DNA from: Opitutales bacterium
Lineage (GTDB): Bacteria; Verrucomicrobiota; Verrucomicrobiia; Opitutales; T3Sed10-336
Direction of reading: 5' to 3'
Assembly: GCA_007130045.1 (NCBI GenBank)
Contig: SLTG01000075.1
Coordinates: 1 to 54,409 of the forward strand
Length of the DNA: 54,409 bases
Numbering within the stretch: the stretch's first letter is position 1; every line of letters starts with the position of its first letter. A model generated the notes under the pieces. It saw only the letters and a program-made list of their open reading frames with translations. It was not told the DNA's origin and ran no database searches. The translations under genes were made by a program, and so were the position numbers. This document shows, piece by piece, positions 38,974 through 45,422 of the stretch.

Positions 38974-39312
38974 ATGAGGAAACCATCGGATCCGGAGCTT
39001 GACGCTCTTCTCGGAGATTGGAATGTAATCCCGCCCGAAGACGACGGCCGGCTTGCGGTTAGGGTCTGGAGGAAGATTTCGGTGCGTGAGGCCGAATCCC
39101 GGCGGGATGCGTCGCGGGTCGGGTGGCTGCCGCGGTTGCTTGGACGGCCCGGCTTCGCCCTGGCAACCGTTCTTGTTTTCGCGCTTGTGGGCCTCGCGCT
39201 CGCCGAGGCGCGTTTGCAGCAGGAGAAGACCGCTTCGTGGGAATCGTTGGAGGAGCGGTATTTTCGCGCCATCGACCCGGTGTCAATGGCGATCCACCGT
39301 CACCAGGAATGA
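38974..39312 (+). CDS. one-helix membrane protein, candidate anti-sigma factor (CnrY-like position)
   Basis: The 112-residue product starts at ATG 38974, with CAGGAGCGGAG a little upstream. The N-terminal 55 residues are hydrophilic (DPELDALLGDWNVIPPEDDGRLAVRVW cut short), one helix spans about residues 58-78 (GFALATVLVFALVGLAL), and about 34 residues would be periplasmic. This is the plan of small anti-sigma factors that hold an ECF sigma factor with a short cytoplasmic segment. Its stop overlaps the start of the next gene (ATGA), and an ECF sigma gene follows. The order Y-X-H of the Cupriavidus CnrYXH system is the same. No sequence-level identity to CnrY can be shown by eye. Confidence 0.65.
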   Translation: MRKPSDPELDALLGDWNVIPPEDDGRLAVRVWRKISVREAESRRDASRVGWLPRLLGRPGFALATVLVFALVGLALAEARLQQEKTASWESLEERYFRAIDPVSMAIHRHQE

Positions 39313-39755
39313 AGAAGTCTGTTATTGTATTCCTTGCCGCCCTGCTTGCGGGGGTCGCTTCGCATGCGCTCTACCTTGGCTATCGGAGTCCGTCCATTGC
39401 CGAACACGAGGCTGTGTTTGAGGATCTTCGGTGGTTGCGGGCGGAGTTCGATCTGGAACGGGAACAGTTTGAGGCCATTTCGGCGCTCTACGAGGAATAC
39501 CGTCCGGTATGCGAGGAGCTGTGTCATCGTGTGATGGCGACCCAGGAGCGGCTCAACCACCTTCTTGCGGATTCGAACGAGGTGACTCCGGAACTCAGGA
39601 ATGCGCTCGAAGCCTATTCGCAGGTCAAGCTGGAATGCCACCAGGCGATGCTCGAACATATTTATCAGGTCGCTTCCGAAATGGCGCCGGATCAAAGGGA
39701 ACGCTACCTCGAGCGCGCCAAAATTCACGTAACGATGCACGATCCCGTGCGTTGA
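39309..39755 (+). CDS. membrane-anchored periplasmic metal-sensor-like protein (CnrX/CpxP-like four-helix fold)
   Basis: The 148-residue product starts at ATG 39309, overlapping the upstream stop by four bases. An N-terminal helix (residues about 3-22) anchors or exports it. The rest is all helical and charged, ending in VTPELRNALEAYSQVK and MLEHIYQVASEMAPDQRERYLERA. This matches the Metal_resist/CnrX pattern of 'PE...A', 'L-x-H-x-x-x' and 'xP-x-Q/H-R'. Possible metal ligands are His33, Cys68, Cys72, His73, Cys110, His111 and His117; the Met that I recall four residues after the last His in CnrX is Val121 here. A general CpxP-like role is the alternative. Confidence 0.65.
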   Translation: MKKSVIVFLAALLAGVASHALYLGYRSPSIAEHEAVFEDLRWLRAEFDLEREQFEAISALYEEYRPVCEELCHRVMATQERLNHLLADSNEVTPELRNALEAYSQVKLECHQAMLEHIYQVASEMAPDQRERYLERAKIHVTMHDPVR

Positions 39756-39871
39756 CCCGACACATGTTCTGTCAAGCTCGGAGTTTGAATGGATGGGCTG
39801 GATCCGCAATCCATGATCCACTCGCTCCGTCTGATTCCTATACGGCGATCGGCGCCGAGGGTTGAAACGGT

Positions 39872-40465
39872 ATGGACGATCCCGACCGGAATGACATGCG
39901 TGACTTGTGCGAGGGCCAGGACGCGGCCCTCAACCGCATCATGGATCGATGGTCGGCGCCGCTTGGCGCGTTTATCCATCGTTACTTGCAGGACCGGGAG
40001 GACGCCTTCGATCTGCTCCAGGAAACGTTCGTCCGGGTTTACCAGAACCGTGATCGATACCGTCCGGACGCGAAGTTTTCCACCTGGCTTTTTGCCATTG
40101 CGGTCAACCTTTGCCGCAACCGGGCCCGTTGGCGCAGGCGCCATCCCACTGTTTCCCTGGATGCCGGCGCGGAGGAGGGAATTCCGTCGTGCCTGAACGC
40201 CTCGAAGAGCGGGGAACAATCCCCGGATGCCGCTTTGGTCCAACGGGAGCGGATTCGGGCGGTGCGTGAAGCCATCGCGCGCCTTTCGCACGACCTCAGA
40301 ACCCCGTTGATCCTCTTCCAATACGAAGGCCTGACGCACCAGGAAATAGCCGGGGTCATGAATTGCACCCCAAAGGCAGTGGAAACCCGCATCTATCGCG
40401 CCCGCCGGAAACTGAAAGCGTGGCTGGCGGACATCGATCAAGCCAGGCCGTCCCCCGCGCCGTGA
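39872..40465 (+). CDS. ECF-type RNA polymerase sigma factor
   Basis: The 197-residue protein has region 2 (LGAFIHRYLQDREDAFDLLQETFVRVYQN cut short; STWLFAIAVNLCRNRAR as 2.3-2.4) and region 4 (RLSHDLRTPLILFQYEGLTHQEIAGVMNCTPKAVETRIYRARRKL cut short), joined by a linker rich in Gly, Ser and Glu. It directs core polymerase to a stress regulon. It lies 116 bases after the sensor-like gene, in the same direction, so the three are likely one regulatory unit held inactive by the candidate anti-sigma factor. The ATG at 39872 has no clear ribosome binding site. Its target promoters are unknown. Confidence 0.9.
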   Translation: MDDPDRNDMRDLCEGQDAALNRIMDRWSAPLGAFIHRYLQDREDAFDLLQETFVRVYQNRDRYRPDAKFSTWLFAIAVNLCRNRARWRRRHPTVSLDAGAEEGIPSCLNASKSGEQSPDAALVQRERIRAVREAIARLSHDLRTPLILFQYEGLTHQEIAGVMNCTPKAVETRIYRARRKLKAWLADIDQARPSPAP

Positions 40466-40598: not shown

Positions 40599-42587
40599 CT
40601 ATCTGCGCAATGGCGTTACGAAAAAGCGGTGCCGGACTGGTTCGCGTTGTTCTGCGGTGAGGGCGGGAAGGGGCGGGAGAACGTTGCGTTGGGTGCGTGA
40701 AACGAATTTTGCGGCGAGTTGTCTAAACTGCTCGAAACGTGAATTCTCCGTGGGCGGCGCTTGAACCACCTGGCGCAGGAAGCTGCGCCACTCGGTCAAC
40801 AGCCGGTCGATGTCGCCCCGTCCGGTGAATTCCCGGATCAAGTCGGCGCGACGCGCCCGGTGGTCGACGATCTCACGCACGATGTCGGAAGCGCCGTATC
40901 CATATTGCGGGACCACGCCTTCCCAAAGGTATCCTTCGATCGTGAAGCGGTGATAGGTTTTGCGGCAGACGCCTGCCAGTGGCCCCATCCATCTCGGATT
41001 CGTCGCGCAAAAACGTTCGCCGCCGAAAAGGTTGGCGATATCGAAGATGAGTTCGTCGAGCGGATAGCGCTTGTCTTCCAATGCCGCGGCCAATGCCAGT
41101 CCCTCGGGGCCGAGAAAAAGAGAGACGACTTCTCCGCGGCGGGTGAGCCGGAGCTGCTTGTCGAGCACGCCGATCCGCGTCCATTGCCAGAGCAGCGTCG
41201 GTTCGGGACCCAGTGAAAGGCATTCCTCGCGGAGCGGGCATTTCCGGCATCCCTCGAACGGGCGCCGCTTCCGGCGAACCAGCCGCGCGCGCCCGGTATC
41301 GGTCGACACGGCGCAGGGATAGTCCGCTGCAGGGCGCTCTCCCGAAACTTCGACTCCAAGCGCGGGGGGCTTTTCGGTGAACAGCCGTGCGCGGTAAAAA
41401 GCGGCGAGGTCGCCCGCCGCGCCGCCGGCCCGCAGGCTCCGGAGGAAAAACGCCCAGGGGAACGGGGTGGCGCGCTTGAGGCGCTGCGGGCGGGCATGGG
41501 TCAGTCGGGGTGTGTCTTCCGTGCAGAGCAGGTACCCGGTTTCGTCGATCCCGCGGCGCCCCGCGCGCCCGATCATCTGCATCAGTTCGTGGGGTTGGAT
41601 TCGGTATTCCGTTTCCTGATACCTATAGCTCTGCGCGGTGATCAGGACCGAGCGCAGCGAAAAGTTAATCCCCGCGCTCAATCCCAGGGTGGCGACCACC
41701 GCGCGCAACTGCCCGGCCTTGGCCAGCGGCTCGATGACCCCGGCGCGCTGGGCGTATGAAAGCCCGCTGTGGTGGTAGGCCACCCGCTGCTGGATGAGCT
41801 TCGCCAGTTTGGGTCCGAGCACGCTTGCCTGTTCGTTGGTCAGGGTCAGCGGTTGAGGCAGGGGGAGCTCTCGGGCGAGCTGGCGAGCCAATCGTTCGGC
41901 TTCGCGCCGGTGAGGGGCGAACAGGAGCACGGGGCCGAGGTCCTCCCTCAACGCTCCGGCCACCCGTTTTGCCCAGTACCCTCGAATGTTCGCGGGGCAG
42001 TAACGCGCGAGCTCGTTGATGTCGATCTCCTCGAGCGGGACCGGCCGTTCGCGGTGACGAATGATCCGGACAGCCCGACCCATGCGTTCGAGCCAGACGC
42101 CCAGGCTTTCCGGGTTGGCGACGGTTCCGCTTAGAAAAAGCAGCTGGACCGTCGGAGACAGGGCCATAAGGACGCCTTCGTAATGGTTGCCGCGTACTGG
42201 GTCTCCAAGCCATTGATATTCATCGACGGCGAAAACGTCCGCCTTCTTCCTGTCGAACGGCAGACCCTGCACCGCCTCCAGGGTGGCGACAACGACCGGG
42301 GCGTCGGGATTCATCGTCACGTCTCCGGTCATGATCCCCGTATCCCAGCCTCGTTCGGACCATTCGGCGAACTTGTCGTTGGCGAGGGCCCGTGTAGGGA
42401 CCGTGTACAGCGCGCGGCCGGAAAAGTTGGTTCGTTCGATGAATTTTTCGAAGATCAGGGTCTTCCCGGCGCCAGTGGGAGCGTCAACGACGACGTCGTG
42501 GCCCTCCATCAGGGCAGAGATCGCCTCCGCCTGCCATTGGTCGGGCAGCATCAGCTTCTGCAGTCCTTCCAAATCATCAATGAACAC
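40599..42587 (-). CDS. Ski2-like DEAD/DEAH-box helicase with inserted cysteine cluster
   Basis: The 662-residue protein has helicase motifs I (APTGAGKT, 36-43), Ia (TVPTRALANDK), II (DEYQ, 122-125), III (LSGT) and VI (QMIGRAGRRG, 337-346), in the order of Ski2/Hel308-like enzymes. Motif II reads DEYQ rather than DExH. After the helicase core an insert holds Cys425, Cys447, Cys450 and Cys456 in the spacing C-X21-C-X2-C-X5-C, the last three matching the C-X2-C-X5-C end of Fe-S nucleases such as AddB and Cas4. A metal or Fe-S cluster is inferred. The C-terminal 200 residues are unassigned. Bacterial members of this type are poorly studied; an RNA or repair role is possible. Confidence 0.88.
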   Translation of the reverse strand: MFIDDLEGLQKLMLPDQWQAEAISALMEGHDVVVDAPTGAGKTLIFEKFIERTNFSGRALYTVPTRALANDKFAEWSERGWDTGIMTGDVTMNPDAPVVVATLEAVQGLPFDRKKADVFAVDEYQWLGDPVRGNHYEGVLMALSPTVQLLFLSGTVANPESLGVWLERMGRAVRIIRHRERPVPLEEIDINELARYCPANIRGYWAKRVAGALREDLGPVLLFAPHRREAERLARQLARELPLPQPLTLTNEQASVLGPKLAKLIQQRVAYHHSGLSYAQRAGVIEPLAKAGQLRAVVATLGLSAGINFSLRSVLITAQSYRYQETEYRIQPHELMQMIGRAGRRGIDETGYLLCTEDTPRLTHARPQRLKRATPFPWAFFLRSLRAGGAAGDLAAFYRARLFTEKPPALGVEVSGERPAADYPCAVSTDTGRARLVRRKRRPFEGCRKCPLREECLSLGPEPTLLWQWTRIGVLDKQLRLTRRGEVVSLFLGPEGLALAAALEDKRYPLDELIFDIANLFGGERFCATNPRWMGPLAGVCRKTYHRFTIEGYLWEGVVPQYGYGASDIVREIVDHRARRADLIREFTGRGDIDRLLTEWRSFLRQVVQAPPTENSRFEQFRQLAAKFVSRTQRNVLPPLPALTAEQREPVRHRFFVTPLRR

Positions 42588-42806: not shown

Positions 42807-44774
42807 ATGAAAAACATTCACCAGGCAAGTGCAATACTCACACCCCTCGGGGCGAAACACGAGGTCACCGGCCCGGACCGCCCCCAAAGGCGTTTTTCGG
42901 TCCAGTCGCTCTCCCGGGCGGTCCGCCGGACGGTATCGGGCGTCGCCCGCATTTTGAATCCGGAGTCCGCTTTCCCGGGCGTTTCCATCGGGCGTAAGGC
43001 GCTGCTTCTCGCAACTCTGATCGGAGCGGCGGCCCTCCCATTTGATGCGCGGGCCTGTGTCGCCTGCAATTTGACCTTTGAGGACGAGGTCCTGAACCAG
43101 CGCGCGGGAACCCTCGCGGGCAAAGACATACTTGCGGCGATGGAGAACCAGCGGGATCTGCCGCTTTCGGGTCTTTCCACGATGCCTTCCCGGACGGAGC
43201 CCGCGACGGAATTAGCGTCGCTTCCTGAAGATCGCTCGTCCACCATGATCCTCGCCCAGGCGGAGATCCCCGATCAGCCCGCCACCACCACCGCACCGGC
43301 GGGGGCGGCGTCGATCGATTGGGAAGACATGTACCGGGATGCGGAGTTCATCGAGATCATCGAGCGGGACGAAGGGCTGTCGATTCCGACGACAAGTTAT
43401 GTTTCGCAGGAGGCGACGCCCGACAAGAGTTTCACGATCGAGCTGGATGAAGGTTTGGCGTATCTTGGAAACGGCGTGATCTACGACGGATTCCTCACCA
43501 GCGGGAAAATTCCGGGACCGACGATCTTTGTCGATCAGGGCGACATCGTGGAGTTCAATGTGGTCAACAGAGGCACCATTCCCCACGGTGCCTCGATCCA
43601 CGCCGCCTACACACAGACCTCCAGCTACCTCGGCCAGATTCAACCGGGCGAGACCAAGACGGTCACGTTCCGCGCCTCACATCCCGGCGTCTTTATGTAC
43701 CACTGCGCGCCCGGGGGCCATGCGATTCCGATGCACGTCCTTTTTGGGCAGTACGGCATGATGGTGGTCAGACCGACGGAGACGAAGTATAGACTGGAAG
43801 AGGAACTCGGACGGGGGCCGGACGTCGAGATCAGCCTTATTCAGCACGAGTGGTACGCGAGCGGCAAGGATGCGGTCGAAGGCAACCCGATGTACGTCAC
43901 CTTCAACGGCAAACTCTTCCGCTACATCGAAGAGCCGATCCAGGCGAAACCCGGCGAATACGTGCGGATCAACTTCCTCAACATCGGGCCGAATCTTCTT
44001 TCGACCTTTCACCTTGTCGGGATTATCTGGGACTACGCCTACTGGCAGGGACACCCGGAAGCCGCGTTTAAAGGGGGGCAAACTGTAACCGCCGGACCGT
44101 CGGACTCCTGGGTCGTCGAGTTCCGCGTCCCTCCCGAGGAAGGCGCCTACACGATGCTTTCGCACGTGGTCGGATCCACCAGCCGCGGAGCGATCGGGCT
44201 CCTGGTCGCGGATCGCAACGCGGAGACCCCGGTCACAGTCATGGCCGACGGACCCGAATTCACGCAGGAGGAATTGCAGGGCATGGTTGCGGACGCGGTG
44301 AGGGTCATTTCGCCATTTAAACCCGGAACGGCCGGAGTTGACGAGACGGTCGCCTACGGGAGCGAGACCGACGAGGTTACCGTGAGCATCATAGGCAACT
44401 CCTATTATCCCAAGGTGGTGCAAGTCACCCCGGGAACCACGGTGACCTGGGTCAACGAAGACGTCTTCTCCTACCTTGCCGGTGAGTTTTCCGGAATCCA
44501 CAACGCGGTCAGCACCAGCGGCCCGGACCGGTTCGTCTCACCGCTGCTCGCCCACGGCGAGAAATACAGCTTCACGTTCGAGGAAGAGGGTGAATACGAC
44601 TACATTTGCACGCCGCACCCGTACATGGAAGGGCGAATTATCGTCAAGGGTGAGCCTGAGGTCGTGGAAGACATCGCCGCGGACGATTCCGGAAGAGGAA
44701 TCGGCGGACTGGCCATCGGGTTGGCGAGCATCGCGGTTCTGCTTTCTCTTGTCACGCTCGTCCGGAAGCGTTAA
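42807..44774 (+). CDS. NirK-like multicopper protein with extra C-terminal cupredoxin and membrane anchor
   Basis: The 655-residue product starts at ATG 42807. A basic 60-residue leader precedes a hydrophobic signal-like segment (about 62-82) and Cys84-x2-Cys87. From about residue 190 come two NirK-type cupredoxins: His260 and His265 (PHGASIHAA), His299-Cys300 (MYHCAPGG), His310 (PMHVLFGQYG), His402 (TFHLVG) and His453 (LSHVVG). These fit type-1 and type-2 copper sites. But Gln315 stands at the axial Met place and Ser263 at the catalytic Asp place of nitrite reductases. A third cupredoxin follows with His565, Cys601, His604 and Met607, then a membrane helix (about 633-652). Nitrite reduction is therefore uncertain. 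Azurin-like partner downstream. Confidence 0.82.
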   Translation: MKNIHQASAILTPLGAKHEVTGPDRPQRRFSVQSLSRAVRRTVSGVARILNPESAFPGVSIGRKALLLATLIGAAALPFDARACVACNLTFEDEVLNQRAGTLAGKDILAAMENQRDLPLSGLSTMPSRTEPATELASLPEDRSSTMILAQAEIPDQPATTTAPAGAASIDWEDMYRDAEFIEIIERDEGLSIPTTSYVSQEATPDKSFTIELDEGLAYLGNGVIYDGFLTSGKIPGPTIFVDQGDIVEFNVVNRGTIPHGASIHAAYTQTSSYLGQIQPGETKTVTFRASHPGVFMYHCAPGGHAIPMHVLFGQYGMMVVRPTETKYRLEEELGRGPDVEISLIQHEWYASGKDAVEGNPMYVTFNGKLFRYIEEPIQAKPGEYVRINFLNIGPNLLSTFHLVGIIWDYAYWQGHPEAAFKGGQTVTAGPSDSWVVEFRVPPEEGAYTMLSHVVGSTSRGAIGLLVADRNAETPVTVMADGPEFTQEELQGMVADAVRVISPFKPGTAGVDETVAYGSETDEVTVSIIGNSYYPKVVQVTPGTTVTWVNEDVFSYLAGEFSGIHNAVSTSGPDRFVSPLLAHGEKYSFTFEEEGEYDYICTPHPYMEGRIIVKGEPEVVEDIAADDSGRGIGGLAIGLASIAVLLSLVTLVRKR

Positions 44775-44897: not shown

Positions 44898-45422
44898 ATG
44901 AATAAGAACATTCTTTGGTTCAAACTTGCAATGCCTCTCGCCGCCGCGATCCTTTTCGCCGGTTGTGGAGAGCCCGATCCGGCGGCCCCGCCCGAAGATC
45001 CGGCTGAAGTTCCGGAGACGGCTGCGCCACCGGCGGATGAGGCGGAAGAGATCGTTATAACCGGAAACGACATGATGGAGTTCGATGTGACGGAGTTCAC
45101 GGTTCAGGCCGGCAGTGAGGTGACGATTACGTTTCGCAACATCGGCCAGATGCCGGTGGAAGCGATGGGGCATAATCTCGCGATTTTGACCCTCGGAACC
45201 GATCCGATTGAATTCGCCAACACGTCCCAGGCGCATCCGCAGAACGACTACATCGATCCGGCCAAGGAGGACCAGGTGATCGCGGCGACCGCGATTCTGG
45301 GGCCGGGCGAGGAGGAGACCCTGGAGTTCACCGCTCCCGACGAGTCCGGTGATTACCCGTTTGTATGCTCGTTTCCGGGACATACGCAAGCGGGGATGCG
45401 GGGCGTAATGATCGTGGAGTAA
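44898..45422 (+). CDS. azurin-like blue copper lipoprotein
   Basis: The start at ATG 44898 gives a lipoprotein signal peptide with lipobox LFAGC and lipidated Cys23. An acidic Pro/Ala/Glu linker (24-50) is followed by an azurin domain. The type-1 copper ligands are His92 in MGHNL, Cys157, His162 and Met167 in FVCSFPGHTQAGM. At 174 residues it is a normal azurin with a tether. It should carry single electrons at the outside of the inner membrane or inside of the outer membrane. It is 123 bases from the NirK-like gene and is followed by a strong terminator, so it may pass electrons to or from that protein. Confidence 0.92.
   Translation: MNKNILWFKLAMPLAAAILFAGCGEPDPAAPPEDPAEVPETAAPPADEAEEIVITGNDMMEFDVTEFTVQAGSEVTITFRNIGQMPVEAMGHNLAILTLGTDPIEFANTSQAHPQNDYIDPAKEDQVIAATAILGPGEEETLEFTAPDESGDYPFVCSFPGHTQAGMRGVMIVE

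Follow-up and report, generated by a model that had tools for sequence, protein, structure and literature searches.

A Putatively Membrane-Tethered Relative of the Copper Nitrite Reductase TsNirK in an Opitutales Bacterium

The nirK gene of the window (the whole 54,409-nucleotide stretch of Opitutales DNA that was analyzed) encodes a membrane-tethered relative of TsNirK, the nitrite reductase of Thermus scotoductus, and not a new kind of enzyme. We consider it very probable that the protein, anchored to the membrane, is a TsNirK-type copper nitrite reductase in which a donor, likely an azurin, would pass electrons to a C-terminal type-1 copper (T1CuC), from there to a type-1 copper in the core (T1CuN) and on to the type-2 (T2) copper, where nitrite would be converted to NO. 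The original prediction had recognized a NirK-like protein of three cupredoxins in which a Ser replaces the catalytic Asp (AspCAT) and a Gln replaces the axial Met. These residues were read correctly, but the Ser/Gln three-cupredoxin type that was taken to be novel had already been described in TsNirK (PMC6400189).

Results

Gene and Protein Organization

A single open frame on the forward strand comprises 655 amino acids and a stop codon (Table 1). Its first codon at 42807 is probably, though not certainly, the start codon of nirK, because the proteins of relatives L002 and L003 have starts resembling that of the window protein (MKNTNQ / MKNLIQ); no obvious ribosome-binding site was seen before this position. 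Changes relative to the nearest relatives are concentrated at third codon positions (119/82/324 for the three positions against L002), and the frame is therefore a conserved coding sequence.

The protein was modeled with AlphaFold2 from a 50-sequence alignment (mean pLDDT 78, pTM 0.74). An unusually long N-terminal stretch precedes the predicted signal-peptide region, which has a matching position in the aligned relatives and within which the model places a helix (residues 61-75). The translation contains all His and Cys ligands that had been predicted for the two NirK cupredoxin domains (H260-G-A-S263-I-H265, Y298-H299-C300, H310, H402, H453) and the complete ligand set of the fused third cupredoxin, and the model likewise contains the predicted C-terminal membrane helix. 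The enzyme is most likely periplasmic (or outward-facing) and membrane-anchored.

Table 1. Features of the nirK locus, with positions in the window.
Feature	Position	Strand	Basis
Probable TsNirK-type copper nitrite reductase gene	42807..44774	+	translation, phmmer to 6hbe, fold match
Signal-peptide region, residues 61-82	42987..43052	+	hydrophobic stretch RKALLLATLIGAAALPFDARA; predicted
Conserved N-terminal ACxxCN segment, residues 83-126	43053..43184	+	alignment, model
Cupredoxin domain I: T1CuN H260, C300, H310, Q315; T2 H265, H299; Ser263 at the AspCAT position	43419..43772	+	
Cupredoxin domain II: H402 (HisCAT), V404 (ValCAT), Q425, T426, H453	43822..44214	+	roles from PMC6400189
Cupredoxin domain III, amicyanin-like T1 copper: H565, C601, H604, M607; E560	44370..44648	+	Copper-bind, 58 bits
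C-terminal membrane helix, residues 633-654, VRKR end	44703..44768	+	AlphaFold2 model
Azurin-like lipoprotein, 174 aa, lipobox FAGC	44898..45422	+	azurin profile
Divergent helicase gene, upstream of nirK	40599-42587	-	

Relationship to TsNirK and Other Copper Proteins

Among solved structures the best match was 6hbe, TsNirK of T. scotoductus SA-01 (phmmer E 5.9e-127, window residues 205-613 against residues 20-440 of 6hbe), which is 86 orders of magnitude ahead of the second-best structure (E 4.5e-41), with an identity of about 51% over 404 aligned residues. The same structure was the best fold match of the AlphaFold2 model (TM 0.90, normalized by target; rmsd 2.0 A). In the crystal structure of TsNirK the core T1 copper has His2-Cys-Gln ligands and a stellacyanin-like geometry, the loop H-G-L-S-I-H carries Ser where AspCAT would stand, and an amicyanin-like T1CuC, fused at the C terminus, lies 14.1 A from T1CuN. 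After purification TsNirK reduced nitrite at 65 s-1 with a KM of 27 uM and accepted electrons from a pseudoazurin (PMC6400189); in the literature searched, we found nothing on TsNirK past this 2019 paper. Thermus strains in which nirK alone was detected reduced nitrite (PMC9270275).

The window protein has in common with TsNirK the order of the three cupredoxin domains, the His2-Cys-Gln T1CuN (H260, C300, H310 and Q315 corresponding to His75, Cys115, His125 and Gln130), SerCAT in H-G-x-S-I-H, the three-His T2 site, HisCAT, ValCAT, the Gln-Thr pair, the amicyanin-like T1CuC and the inter-domain Glu (E560, corresponding to Glu385 on the proposed electron path to T1CuN). Gln239 of TsNirK is kept in the window protein and invariant among its relatives, in which the position of Thr240 is held by Thr or Ser. 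The suggestion that the fused third cupredoxin is a built-in electron carrier agrees with the same arrangement in the TsNirK crystal structure (PMC6400189). However, the window protein, unlike TsNirK, carries an N-terminal ACxxCN extension of about 120 residues, its C-terminal membrane helix is absent from the crystallized TsNirK chain, and its gene adjoins an azurin gene instead of one for cytochrome c.

Canonical two-domain NirK and the heme- or cupredoxin-fused forms (AniA, Geobacillus, Ralstonia, Hyphomicrobium) share the fold of domains I-II, the T2 site and the Cys-His bridge with the window protein, but carry Asp and an axial Met. When the protein was aligned with structurally known NirKs, as the original prediction had proposed, Gln315 and Ser263 fell on the Met and Asp of Geobacillus NirK and on the Gln and Ser of TsNirK, and the site is not a canonical one. 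Likewise, the score against the canonical NirK profile TIGR02376 (128 bits) is below the curated cut-off of 296.3. A NirK-like core with a C-terminal cupredoxin is also found in the multicopper oxidase of Nitrosopumilus maritimus (PDB 9cck), which by sequence and fold is far less similar to the window protein than 6hbe (E 7e-27, TMt 0.60).

The TsNirK-type group, including the window protein, probably corresponds to NirK clade 5 of Pold et al. 2024, judging from the genera named for that clade, namely Thioalkalivibrio, Caldalkalibacillus and Thermus (PMC10999283). Thermus and the Thioalkalivibrio relative L050 belong to the same Ser/Gln family here, and alkaline or hot habitats are a shared feature; the text of that study makes no mention of Verrucomicrobia or Balneolota (PMC10999283).

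Conservation of the Copper Sites

When about 85,000 genomes were scanned with short peptides of the window protein, a query type that under-samples distant members, 64 relatives were obtained from Verrucomicrobiota, Bacteroidota, Balneolota, Rhodothermota, Ignavibacteriota, Myxococcota, Pseudomonadota and Planctomycetota and from one metagenome-assembled genome labeled Bacillus. In an alignment of 65 rows, which includes TsNirK and leaves out L039, Ser263 was kept in 64 of 64 and Gln315 in 65 of 65 covering rows, across at least eight phyla. All copper ligands, HisCAT, ValCAT, Gln425 and Glu560 were invariant, and the position of Thr426 was occupied by Thr or, in 17 relatives, by Ser. Since both exchanges are kept throughout and codon changes are predominantly at third positions, the odd copper-site residues reflect neither chance nor sequencing error. 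In a tree of the relatives the window protein grouped with other Opitutales, while TsNirK formed a long separate branch.

N-Terminal Extension and C-Terminal Anchor

The extension that follows the signal peptide opens with the motif A-C-x-x-C-N (residues 83-88). Of the 62 informative alignment rows, 59 have Cys84 and 60 have Cys87, and the AlphaFold2 model predicts two helices in this segment (85-98 and 103-115, pLDDT about 90). No convincing match to the segment was found in Pfam or the PDB. A profile of it gave nine matches in eight of 53 related genomes, all in frames of at least 613 amino acids, a size consistent with NirK of the same type; among the genomes searched, the segment appears to be specific to the Ser/Gln NirK clade. 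The genome of L002 (G047:C283, C373) has matching frames of 613 and 732 amino acids, probably two paralogues of this NirK of which one is longer.

The hydrophobic tail with its basic end is kept in most aligned relatives. An Opitutaceae group (L053-L059 and L064) lacks it, as do L020, L050 and the homologue in Thermus thermophilus; the gene of the latter stops 18 codons past the match. An apparent loss of the CxxC motif or the anchor in L048, L049 and L063 was rejected as contig-end truncation. The predicted extension and anchor are two previously unreported anatomical additions to the TsNirK type. It is conceivable, although rather unlikely, that the ACxxCN helical hairpin is a working module at the N-terminus of the mature protein, which would receive copper or undergo dithiol/disulfide redox changes and in this way load or switch the tethered reductase.

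Genomic Context in the Source Genome

The product of the gene immediately downstream scored 78.7 bits against the azurin profile TIGR02695, under the curated cut-off of 105.1, and is called azurin-like because the His, Cys, His, Met pattern is present (MGHN, C-S-F-P-G-H-T-Q-A-G-M). Neither this gene nor the ACxxCN segment had been mentioned in the original prediction. The azurin gene also lies downstream of nirK in six verrucomicrobial loci (L003, L005, L006, L033, L037, L062), and the azurin lipoprotein is most likely the electron donor of the window NirK. Farther upstream, at 39312-40465, is a small periplasmic protein with regularly spaced Cys and His, Spy/CnrX-like by eye and directly upstream of an ECF sigma factor, which might sense metals or envelope stress.

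The window's genome encodes a clade II NosZ (810 bits); an azurin/plastocyanin-family protein is encoded about 1.6 kb upstream of NosZ on the opposite strand (G000:C113; L066, L076). This genome has only one Cu-oxidase_3 protein and no other NirK; the search for NrfA gave just a 19-bit match below the cut-off, and that for dissimilatory nitrate reductase two partial molybdopterin matches. Cytochrome cd1 (NirS) was not found and was rejected as the alternative nitrite reductase of this genome.

Five proteins of the heme-copper oxidase family are encoded in the window's genome. In heme-copper oxidases the cross-link tyrosine stands four residues past a His. The protein closest to the ba3-type oxidases, L073 (G000:C76:48857-50203), reads G-H-Q-S-Q-Q, and with Gln at the expected tyrosine it is a weak candidate for a B-family NO reductase, a type reported to have been found only in Bacillota (PMC11388526). 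A CuA-like frame (L068) is located near L073, and two further heme-copper proteins (L072, L074) are CcoN-like, with 239 and 162 bits, far under the ccoN cut-off. Overall, this genomic context fits denitrification.

Partner Genes of the Relatives

Nitrogen genes were surveyed in 44 genomes of relatives. Seven of these, all from the anchor-less Opitutaceae group (L053-L056, L058, L059, L064), also contain a canonical NirK, above the curated cut-off in six and as a partial match of 251 bits in the seventh, while no canonical NirK above the cut-off was found in the other 37. The canonical NirK of L059 has HNIDLH, a Met ligand (HIGNGM) and a C-terminal cytochrome c; in this genome about 1.4 kb separates the canonical from the Ser/Gln nirK, and a formylglycine-generating-enzyme-like gene lies between them. 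Cytochrome d1 matches above 300 bits occurred in just one of the genomes searched (that of L065), and 36 of the 37 genomes outside the two-NirK Opitutaceae have neither canonical NirK nor NirS.

Clade II NosZ was found in 14 of the 44 genomes, none of them among the two-NirK Opitutaceae, and in six genomes it is on the nirK contig within about 8 kb. In Balneolaceae, nirK adjoins genes for RIC/ScdA (a di-iron iron-sulfur protein of NO-stress repair) and an Rrf2 regulator, with NosZ nearby, and DUF542 and Rrf2 genes are likewise found near the nirK homologue on a Thermus thermophilus plasmid. At seven Bacteroidales loci (L023, L027, L028, L030, L031, L042, L047) the genes next to nirK, on the opposite strand, were named by eye as cytochrome c oxidase subunits, and a heme farnesyltransferase-like gene was recognized there in the same way.

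Discussion

In the mechanism that we propose by homology with TsNirK, a donor, most likely the neighboring azurin lipoprotein, would reduce T1CuC in domain III. By way of Glu560 and a water molecule the electron would then reach His310 of T1CuN, whose axial ligand is Gln. From T1CuN it would cross the Cys300-His299 bridge to the T2 copper, whose ligands are His265, His299 and, from the next subunit, His453, and there nitrite would be reduced to NO. The third T2 ligand is donated to the neighboring subunit in NirK trimers (PMC6400189), and on the same basis we infer a homotrimer, nitrite reductase activity in the source organism and azurin as its donor. Ser263 together with His402, Gln425 and Thr426 would hold the water and proton network, the role of the Asp in ordinary NirK, and the C-terminal helix would tether the enzyme to the membrane. 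In the window's genome the NO would then pass to the candidate NO reductase and its product to clade II NosZ. The formation of NO from nitrite is the most likely reaction of the window enzyme.

The purpose of this reaction is a separate matter. A nitrite reductase serving NO detoxification balance, signaling or low-nitrite scavenging instead of respiratory denitrification would differ from our preferred explanation in purpose, not in chemistry. Consistent with such a role are the RIC/ScdA repair proteins and Rrf2-type regulators adjoining nirK, the low KM of TsNirK, the second NirK of the seven Opitutaceae and the absence of NosZ from 30 of the 44 genomes; the presence of NosZ in only 14 of them, the second NirK of the Opitutaceae, the weak NO reductase assignment in the window's genome and the TsNirK identity of about 51% count against our preferred explanation. 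Nevertheless, the window's own genome combines NosZ with a candidate NO reductase, and nirK and NosZ are clustered in Balneolaceae, which makes a non-respiratory role possible but the less probable reading. As a canonical NirK is also present in the seven Opitutaceae, the Ser/Gln protein may do something else in some hosts; a different substrate is conceivable for some members, chiefly these two-NirK Opitutaceae, but is called for by no finding.

The original prediction had taken the changed residues to point to an oxidase or to a reductase with another substrate, and a multicopper oxidase that converts O2 to water, or a metal or organic oxidase, with nitrite reductase function lost, would indeed be in line with the replacement of both the catalytic Asp and the axial Met, with the cytochrome oxidase subunit genes that adjoin the gene in several Bacteroidales and with the PGAP label of the Thermus homologue, which reads only 'multicopper oxidase domain-containing protein'. 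However, the laccase-type H-C-H motif is absent, the Cys having a His neighbor on just one side (Y298-H299-C300-A301), and there is therefore no type-3 copper pair. In addition, the aligned relatives show no variation at the three-His T2 site, HisCAT or ValCAT, the surrounding genes relate to NO and N2O, and TsNirK reduces nitrite with the same residues. We therefore rejected the oxidase reading, which is very improbable. The reading of the protein as an inactive paralogue in decay, its Gln ligand and Ser being accidents of the lineage, was dismissed as practically negligible, since, although both changes remove residues held essential in classical NirK, they are invariant across relatives from at least eight phyla, the frames are intact with mostly synonymous changes, and TsNirK is active.

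In summary, TsNirK, the only characterized Ser/Gln nitrite reductase, is no oddity of Thermus, its active site being invariant in dozens of uncultured bacteria from at least eight phyla. Many of the hosts of Ser/Gln NirK come from soda-lake sediment, and it is usually their only NO-forming nitrite reductase. Since standard models (TIGR02376) score these proteins below the cut-off, nirK may be wrongly counted as absent from their genomes. If the module function suggested for the hairpin holds true, hairpin and anchor would set apart a structural subclass of the Ser/Gln NirKs that is perhaps adapted to alkaline, proton-poor habitats. The seven Opitutaceae genomes that hold a canonical NirK beside the Ser/Gln one offer a natural experiment on the purpose of the changes.
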